DNA from: Pseudoalteromonas rubra
Lineage (GTDB): Bacteria; Pseudomonadota; Gammaproteobacteria; Enterobacterales; Alteromonadaceae
Direction: 5' to 3'
DNA length: 64,000 nucleotides
Assembly: GCF_001482385.1 (NCBI RefSeq)
Contig: NZ_CP013611.1
Location: 682,001-746,000 of the forward strand
The notes beneath the pieces were generated by a model. It saw only the letters and a program-made list of their open reading frames with translations. It made no database searches and was not told the origin of the DNA. The first letter of the stretch is position 1, and every line of letters starts with the position of its first letter. Positions 28,693 through 29,943 of this stretch are shown piece after piece. Both the position numbers and the translations under genes were made by a program.

Positions 28693-28742
28693 AGGCAAAC
28701 AGGTTTCCTTACCTGTTTGCCTCTTATATTTGCATTTTTTCA
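28693..28742 (+). terminator. Terminator of the mfd-csiV transcript
   Basis: A perfect 12-bp stem (AGGCAAACAGGT at 28693-28704 with its complement at 28711-28722), a 6-nt loop and a T-rich tail to 28742. It marks the left border of the accessory island. Confidence 0.85.
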
Positions 28743-28868
28743 CAGCTCGCCTCCTCTCCTTTAAACCCCCTAATTATTTGAGCACAACCATTCCCCTTTA
28801 AATTGAGCATTTGTTGCTCACTTAGGATTGACAATAGGTACACAGACATGTTTTGATACTTCACGAAA

Positions 28869-28886
28869 TATATTGAATACAATATA
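28869..28886. promoter_or_regulatory. Perfect palindrome upstream of the small GG-peptide gene
   Basis: TATATTG, a 4-nt spacer and CAATATA form a perfect 7-bp-arm inverted repeat that ends only three bases before the AAGGAG ribosome binding site. A -35-like TTGACA lies about 40 bp upstream. The layout suggests a repressor operator or a structure blocking initiation. No regulator is visible next to it. Confidence 0.5.
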
Positions 28887-28900
28887 CTTAAGGAGAAAAC

Positions 28901-29068
28901 ATGAACCATTTAAATCTTAAAACGAAGAAACTCAAAAATTTGACCAGCAACGAAACGCTTGCCAAACAAGCAACACGATTTATCGCGGGCGGCAGTTCAC
29001 ATACGAATGTGTGCATTAACTCTGTACAACAATGCAGAACCGATGGTACCGACGGTATGCCTGGTTAA
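28901..29068 (+). CDS. Small peptide with double-glycine leader motif (RiPP or bacteriocin-like precursor, candidate)
   Basis: A 55-residue ORF with a strong ribosome binding site (AAGGAG, 5-base spacing). Residues 1-29 are Lys/Asn/Leu-rich (NLKTKKLKNLT), like the leader of Gly-Gly precursor peptides, and are followed by Ala-Gly-Gly at 29-31. The remaining 24 residues contain two Cys (38 and 45), are rich in Ser/Thr/Asn and end in Met-Pro-Gly. No modifying enzyme or peptidase-ABC exporter is in the window; a decayed RND/HlyD-type locus lies 270 bp downstream on the other strand. Peptides with this leader pattern are known in marine gammaproteobacteria as predicted precursors. The product is inferred. 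Confidence 0.55.
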   Translation: MNHLNLKTKKLKNLTSNETLAKQATRFIAGGSSHTNVCINSVQQCRTDGTDGMPG

Positions 29069-29340
29069 CAGCTACAAGTAAGAGCGCCCCCGTGTGCTCT
29101 TTCCAATCCTGCATATAAAAAATAACAGACTAACGATTTATATTCCCTTTAAACTAAATAACACATCTGCACCAATCATAGGGGCCCCTACGTAGACCAA
29201 GTTGATTCGCTCGTTGATTAAGGATGAGAAAAGCTGGGCTCAAGCCTAAACCGACAGCGACCGATACCAAACGGTAAATGCCGGCCAATGTCTGTAACCA
29301 TTTTCTTGAGCGACAGAACGATATAGTTTAGTGGGGTAAA
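29069..29340. other. Non-coding stretch between the small peptide and the RND relic
   Basis: A weak hairpin (AAGAGC at 29080-29085 with GCTCTT at 29096-29101, then TTCC) may terminate the peptide gene. A 10-bp palindrome (AGGGGCCCCT) lies near 29180. I recognise no protein fragment here. Confidence 0.4.
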
Positions 29341-29943
29341 TTAATAGGGTTTACTGTGTGTTTTGTAAAATAGCAAATAAAACACAGGTAGAAGAACCAT
29401 AGTTAAAATTGTGCCAAATGAAAGACCAGCCATAGCGACGCCTGACATGCCAGGCAAAATATCAATGCCTGGAGGTGGATCCATGATTAATCTGACATTA
29501 TATGTTCTGGTTGTTTGAGACGCTTCGCTGCTAACCTCTTTAATACGTGCCGGAATTTCAATGTCCGGAAAAGCATCAAATACGACTCTAGGTTTTTTTA
29601 CATATGGCAAGTTCGAAATATGGTTTTCCGAAATGCTGATGTCCATCTCCATTTTTGATATATCAACCAATCGGAAGGTTGGACTATTAGCATTGATATC
29701 CTGGTAATTTTCCACATAGCGTTGAACCACTACACCATCGAATGGTGCTTTTAGCGTTGCGTAGCTAAGCCTGTCCTCAGCGGCATTTAATTGGGCCATC
29801 GCAACGGCATAACTCGCCTTCGCACTATTGTAGGCTGTATGACGAAGGTCAACGGTTGAATGACTCACAGCGCCTGGTTTTCTTTGCTGAATACGAGTAA
29901 CTCGATCATATTCTATTAAAGCATTATCATCGTTAGATGATAG
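29341..29943 (-). pseudogene. Relic: RND periplasmic adaptor fused to the C-terminus of an RND pump
   Basis: The reading frame is open from the TGA at 29944-29946 to the stop at 29341. Residues up to about 165 are the middle and C-terminal part of an HlyD/RND membrane-fusion protein: coiled-coil arm, LKAPFDGVVVQRYVENYQDI lipoyl half, and a beta-barrel ending in ILPGMSG. The frame then switches without a stop to AGLSFGTILTMVLLPVFYLLF, which is the last transmembrane helix of an RND (AcrB-type) permease. The adaptor N-terminus with signal peptide, and nearly all of the pump, are missing. This is what one large in-frame deletion of an efflux operon would leave. A GTG at 29868 is unlikely to yield a useful product. 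Confidence 0.8.

Follow-up and report, generated by a model that had tools for sequence, protein, structure and literature searches.

A probable orphan class I lanthipeptide precursor within a dispersed leader-peptide family of Pseudoalteromonas rubra

Is a 55-residue open reading frame of Pseudoalteromonas rubra, with a leader ending in Gly-Gly and no modification enzyme beside it, a genuine peptide precursor, and which machinery would then serve it? The frame lies in a stretch of 64,000 nucleotides (the window), to which all coordinates below refer unless a contig, genome or locus handle precedes them. It is argued here that the gene is real, that it belongs to a large family of scattered precursors, and that its product very probably depends on enzymes encoded far away.

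A family of scattered precursors with a common leader

The gene occupies 28901..29068 of the plus strand, stop counted, from an ATG at 28901 to a TAA at 29066-29068, and the ribosome binding site AAGGAG can be read at 28890..28895, all as originally predicted. The leader covers residues 1-31 (28901..28993) and ends in Ile-Ala-Gly-Gly; the Ala-Gly-Gly does stand at residues 29-31, and the leader length, first put at 29 residues, is corrected to an end at Gly31. The core (residues 32-55, SSHTNVCINSVQQCRTDGTDGMPG; 28994..29065) has the 24 residues and two Cys, Cys38 and Cys45, that had been described.

A search of the genome with the peptide found 19 places, its own included. The profile from alignment A1, made of 18 of these 19 peptides (L008 at C1:4179600 was left out), gave 44 matches genome-wide, 41 of them at E<=1e-3, with 38 on contig C1 and six on contig C2. 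Lys12, Leu14, Thr25 and Gly30, in the numbering of the 55-residue peptide, are invariant both in A1 (18 rows) and in the larger alignment A4 (39 rows, without C1:1370900, C1:4174659, C1:2742327 and C1:4179600). Core counts refer to 43 of the 44 peptides, the 23-aa truncated match C1:4310532 being left out and C1:4179600, which has no in-frame start codon, being retained together with three weak or irregular matches. The leader ends in Gly-Gly in 42 of the 43 and in Gly-Ala in one, so that Gly is found at -2 throughout (43/43); Thr stands at -7 in 34/43 leaders and at -6 in eight more, the latter from placement of the cut within GGG runs, where it was set after the first two Gly and is maybe one residue early.

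Databases had little to offer on the peptide itself. Neither Pfam nor NCBIfam has a matching family; NF038153 of NCBIfam gives no match to it, and weak ones to 2 of 18 family members (best E 0.0032) and to 1 of 10 further members (E 0.62). Searched alone against 5.8 billion proteins, the peptide returned its own cluster only; a plasmid DNA search gave no match, PADLOC reported nothing for the peptide or for the LanB enzyme discussed below, and the single match from Rfam, upstream of the gene and on the other strand, was at chance level (E 0.76). A chance reading frame would be short and without protein database matches, as this one is. That explanation is nevertheless refuted by a leave-one-out profile of 38 members (without the peptide itself and the four sequences missing from A4), which ranks the frame first of the 1136 in the window (E=1.5e-13; runner-up 0.15), and by orthologues that bear the marks of purifying selection; virtually no weight is left to it. 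Because of homology to the family and to orthologues, and not of database matches, the 55-residue frame is accepted as a gene, and its Gly-Gly leader as genuine. The proposed Gly-Gly-leader, RiPP-type precursor is supported. Neither the genome profile nor the leave-one-out profile finds another member in the window.

Several arrangements within the family may be recorded here. Three members lie near-tandem at L024 (G000:C1:4178168-4180020), one of them without an in-frame start codon. At L022:13094-16574 and L023:11476-16120, Cys-less or Cys-poor members are paired with a protein of 185-191 aa that has no Pfam match and with a winged-helix protein of 711 aa, perhaps as signal-receptor sets. 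Cys-less cores have THSIT stretches in common in this genome; in P. luteoviolacea and P. aurantia the common stretches read NTDTVTQ or NTDTITQ. Closest to the 55-residue peptide is the Cys-less pair of L023, at 49% and 46%, the next member being at 45%.

Orthologues and signals at a variable site

The gene order mfd - csiV - small lipoprotein - precursor is found in this genome (G000) and in G126, G033 and G041, while in G044, G061, G063, G036 and G059 other genes follow the lipoprotein gene and the precursor is absent. Since downstream content varies in this way among genomes, the site is a variable one. The gene is dispensable, because it is present at 4/9 syntenic sites and because no more than 4 of the 99 genus genomes compared have a full-length match. 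Compared with the two more distant orthologues, G033 and G041, dN/dS is ~0.07-0.08 (0.048/0.69 and 0.048/0.62), with four non-synonymous changes in the leader and three in the core; judging from these ratios, the orthologues are under purifying selection.

A former precursor, now decayed or silent and thus unexpressed or non-functional, would suit the patchy occurrence at a variable site, the broken gene of an RND adaptor that adjoins the precursor, and the differences in the ribosome binding stretch, which reads AAGAAG in G126, AAAGGGGGG in G033 and AAGGAG in G041. Against this stand the frame, intact in all four genomes, the retention of an upstream TTGACA and the low dN/dS, so that decay appears very unlikely.

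The TTGACA (28828..28833, plus strand) is common to all four orthologues and may be a -35 element; it is absent among the sites from a mechanical scan. Past the end of the preceding lipoprotein gene, a perfect hairpin of 12 bp (28693..28722, plus strand) is missing from the mechanical terminator scan, whose range started at 28700. It is a possible terminator of that gene, and the precursor may therefore form its own transcript. Past the stop codon, a further hairpin and possible terminator (29080..29101, plus strand), is absent from the mechanical scan as well; two of the three orthologues retain it, and the third has a shortened form. An RBS-like 4-mer within 20 nt precedes 39 of the 44 family matches, vs 97 of 956 plus-strand ATGs of the window.

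The perfect 7-bp-arm palindrome TATATTG-AATA-CAATATA (28869..28886) is indeed present three bases before the ribosome binding site. Its part as a functional element did not hold up: none of the three orthologues keeps it intact, and it is no commoner than expected by chance. Perfect 7-bp-arm hairpins (loop 3-8) have 60 start positions in the window, a count that long hairpins enter more than once, and 6 of 31 AT-matched 215-nt chunks contain one; the other 43 family matches have not even a 6-bp hairpin within 35 nt upstream. An operator was thus rejected, and the palindrome is judged incidental.

The broken RND adaptor gene lies at 29341-29868 of the minus strand (TIGR01730; PF16576, PF13437), and its end weakly resembles that of an RND pump (E 1.9). 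The equivalent place holds an ORF of 826 aa in G033 and one of 913 aa in G041, both RND-pump-like by eye. The original prediction had allowed for a precursor left over from a cluster deleted together with this relic; in G033 and G041 the long RND-pump-like ORF adjoins an intact orthologue and the LanB genes sit on other contigs, which speaks against both such a deletion and any part of the relic in the system.

Distant enzymes and the pattern of the cores

LanB has a single match in the genome, within a C1 operon (~2,732,138-2,740,112, minus strand) that encodes an HlyD-like protein, a C39-peptidase ABC exporter, LanC and LanB; it is located ~2.0 Mb from the precursor, and neither enzyme gene is near the latter. 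Proximity to LanB/LanC is the usual state of a class I precursor, though no part of its chemical definition. LanB (1048 aa) matches PF04738 (E=3.4e-135) and PF14028 (E=2.7e-61), and its relatives of solved structure are NisB and other lantibiotic dehydratases. LanC matches PF05147 (E=1.4e-37) and has 8byk (lanthionine synthetase C-like protein) and NisC as sequence relatives of solved structure; its WCYG and CHG stretches, which we take to be the zinc ligands, align with 8byk. The exporter, whose HlyD partner is in the operon, carries the C39 domain PF03412 (E=1.4e-35) and is related in sequence to PCAT-type bacteriocin ABC transporters of solved structure. Two C39 domains of the genome exceed the cut-off, at 127 bits in the operon vs 36 bits in an ABC protein at L025. 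The latter was rejected as the exporter on account of its weak score and of the 437-aa HlyD-like gene (by eye) that it adjoins; we regard it as a type I exporter of the ordinary sort, and the catalytic Cys of its C39 domain appears to be replaced.

On the far side of the HlyD gene, at 2-4 kb and past a glmU-like gene (by eye), there are two family matches, of which one is weak (E=0.03), and the next one is ~71 kb from the operon; 42 of the 44 matches are at least ~70 kb from the enzyme genes or on the other contig. Among neighbouring ORFs of at least 90 aa within 4 kb of the scattered precursors, no family recurs at more than 6 of the 44 matches, and some neighbour families are common to several precursors, partly since adjacent precursors see the same gene.

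In other genomes the same leader is found next to these enzymes. A leader profile built without C1:1370900, C1:4174659 and C1:2742327 has matches at E<0.02 in 31 of 79 LanB loci scanned, all 31 within the 42 loci nearest to the LanB of this genome (L166-L207). The order HlyD, C39-ABC, LanC, LanB is complete in 27 of these 42; in L194, L197, L201 and L206 the HlyD and ABC genes come after LanB, and the remaining loci are cut short, rearranged or without some part. Same-leader precursors occur near LanB in P. flavipulchra, P. phenolica, P. denitrificans, a Colwellia MAG and Thalassomonas, and in P. flavipulchra NCIMB 2033, whose LanB is 63% identical to that of P. rubra, one is placed between the C39-ABC and LanC genes. 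Paralogues beside RiPP enzymes, suggested at the outset as a check, were accordingly found in several genomes, a few kb from LanB/LanC.

Leader and LanB also go together across genomes. Both are present in 51 of 108 genus genomes and both absent from 57 (LanB E<=1e-3, leader E<=1e-4). On an Mfd tree of 81 of these genomes (36 with and 45 without LanB) LanB needs only five label changes, and therefore the 51/57 split amounts to five independent contrasts; all five agree, with a two-sided sign test of 0.0625, the minimum attainable with five. Among 119 relatives, a draw that overlaps the 108 genomes, LanB and leader occur in the same 34 and the leader in none of the 85 others. Nearly all LanB genomes have one full-length LanB, G039 and G137 having two, and G041 and G023 show extra weak matches. 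Distant Lant_dehydr_N matches of 27-31 bits are seen at G041:C10:132807-133799 and G023:C8:127215-129023, in ORFs of 875 and 824 aa. The 51 genomes hold from 1 to at least 62 precursors each (median 22), and at least 1,352 leader matches altogether, the counts being lower bounds where more candidates existed; four genomes stand at 62 or more.

In 19 named genomes searched at E<=1e-3, leader counts were 45 in P. rubra S2676, 36 in P. luteoviolacea DSM 6061, 43 in P. denitrificans, 21 in P. flavipulchra, 11 in P. peptidolytica, 25 in P. aurantia, 23 in P. phenolica, 2 in Pseudoalteromonas NBT06-2, 29 in Thalassomonas RHCl1, 3 in Shewanella abyssi, 3 in Colwellia DT_20, 1 in Colwellia TT2012, 1 in Psychrobium and 2 in Bowmanella. 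The five searched genomes whose LanB is more distant (31-33% identical), namely Chitinophaga, Hymenobacter, Aquimarina, Geothrix and a Thalassovita MAG, had a count of zero, and the leader family therefore goes with the nearer LanB group and not with every LanB.

Information on modification comes from the cores, 40/43 of which contain Cys. Of 114 core Cys, 99 are preceded by a Ser or Thr 3-6 residues to the N-terminal side, vs 52.8±5.2 when residues are shuffled within cores and 69.3±4.3 when length-scaled Ser/Thr maps are swapped between cores; 0/2000 trials of either control reach 99. On the C-terminal side there is no excess: Ser/Thr accompanies 38/114 Cys, under the shuffle mean. Every Cys has an upstream Ser/Thr of its own in 39 of the 40 Cys-bearing cores (shuffle 18.2±2.8, swap 29.2±1.9; 0/2000 each). 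The pattern recurs in the best-scoring, and thus not random, peptides of Thalassomonas (41/46 Cys; 17 of 18 listed places out of 29 matches in total, one with an internal stop left out) and P. denitrificans (58/64; best 20 of 43 matches), with 0/2000 shuffles and swaps. In the Thalassomonas set, which includes three near-copy peptides, the C-terminal side (22/46) is ordinary vs the shuffle and high vs the swap control (12/2000). Such one-sided spacing is what rings from dehydro residues to Cys would need, although it is no proof of rings. In the peptide under study both Cys have a suitably placed Ser/Thr (Thr35/Cys38 and Ser41/Cys45), which makes Thr35 (or Ser33)-Cys38 and Ser41-Cys45 candidate rings, and all of these residues are retained in the three orthologues. 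The calculated [M+H]+ of the core is 2507.071 if unmodified, 2471.050 after two dehydrations, the minimum for two rings, 2399.007 after all six, and 2505.055 with nothing but a disulphide.

Members at L327 (Thalassomonas) and L356 (P. denitrificans) have a near-identical core start, (G/A)RGPESEAFCQNTNDYWCQRP(S/T)SPLV, through either transfer or deep conservation of one product.

The peptide might instead be exported by the C39 transporter with no modification by LanB, as a microcin-like peptide or signal with at most a Cys38-Cys45 disulphide. Because LanB, LanC and the C39 exporter form one operon, co-occurrence cannot separate modification from mere export, and 3/43 family members are without Cys. 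A disulphide, however, gives no reason for the N-terminal Ser/Thr-to-Cys pattern seen in three genomes, and same-leader precursors adjoin LanB/LanC elsewhere; unmodified export is hence considered improbable.

The 55-residue peptide is very probably the orphan precursor of a class I lanthipeptide, with processing in trans, and the suggestion that it uses machinery elsewhere fits best with the distant C39-peptidase ABC exporter, LanB and LanC. Glutamylation and elimination in the LanB enzyme family are tRNA-Glu-dependent. The 31-residue leader would be recognised by the single LanB of the genome, which would glutamylate and eliminate core Ser/Thr; LanC would then join Cys38 and Cys45 to the dehydrated positions, and the C39-peptidase ABC exporter, with HlyD, would cut after Gly31 and export a 24-residue product. 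Because the leader is common to all, the dozens of scattered precursors presumably use the same LanB/LanC/C39 enzymes. The product may be an antibacterial or signalling peptide; the diverse cores and their patchy occurrence would fit antagonism and signalling alike.

Relation to known lanthipeptide systems

Heterologous production has been reported for class I lanthipeptides from this genus, namely the pseudorosins A-C from P. flavipulchra S16 (PMC12819058) and PciA from P. citrea (PMC9993889). The pseudorosins with PsfB, and PciA of P. citrea DSM 8771, share genus and LanB/LanC class with the present case; PciA is depicted within a gene cluster, whereas the P. rubra precursor is ~2 Mb from the enzymes.

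Class I LanA of Bacteroidetes, with an LxLxKx5L leader, a Gly-Gly site and a C39 protease (Walker et al., 2020, PMC7268733), agree with our family in leader type, cleavage site and enzyme class. The LxLx and Leu14 of our peptide correspond to the motif, but Thr8 occupies the position of its Lys; with other hydrophobic residues permitted for Leu, 31/43 leaders fit. The alternative leader motif known for class I is FxLD. Substrates of C39 peptidase ABC exporters carry Gly-Gly or Gly-Ala at -2/-1. Hydrophobic residues at -4, -7 and -12 are expected for the C39 protease LahT according to the review PMC10885120, and the Gly-Gly site of our peptide has Ile at -4 and Leu at -12 but Thr at -7, as has most of the family. 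Unclustered proteases are treated in PMC8960859.

A further likeness is to the prochlorosins and synechococsins, where ProcM has 29 substrates and SyncM 79 (PMC10783134): one enzyme set, dozens of precursors, one leader type, diverse cores and scatter over the genome. Those systems, however, belong to cyanobacteria and combine class II LanM with Nif11-type leaders, whereas here class I LanB and LanC go with another leader; having no Pfam or NCBIfam match, the P. rubra peptide is not of the Nif11 type. Scattered prochlorosin precursors are said in PMC7268733 to escape a search limited to seven genes, and the search of Walker et al., ending seven genes from LanC, would therefore miss scattered precursors. 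Mining of LanC neighbourhoods to this distance would miss nearly all precursors of the present genome.

Dispersed class I precursors served by one LanB were not found reported in the available portions of the open-licence literature searched. The original prediction of an undescribed element thus stands in part: leaders of this type are already known from class I lanthipeptides, while the scale and the prochlorosin-like dispersal appear new within that literature. To our knowledge, natural lanthipeptide systems with one enzyme and many substrates at such scale are known only with class II LanM. We incline, with less assurance than for the single precursor, towards a class I counterpart of the prochlorosins in pigmented-type Pseudoalteromonas and some relatives, in which one LanB/LanC/C39-exporter chassis would serve up to 60 or more single-gene precursors subject to gain and loss at variable sites, the repertoire of a strain shifting gene by gene. 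If so, it would serve peptide engineering and the question why marine bacteria maintain libraries of this kind, and a LanB/LanC pair that takes dozens of dissimilar cores would add a second, independent instance of one enzyme with many substrates.
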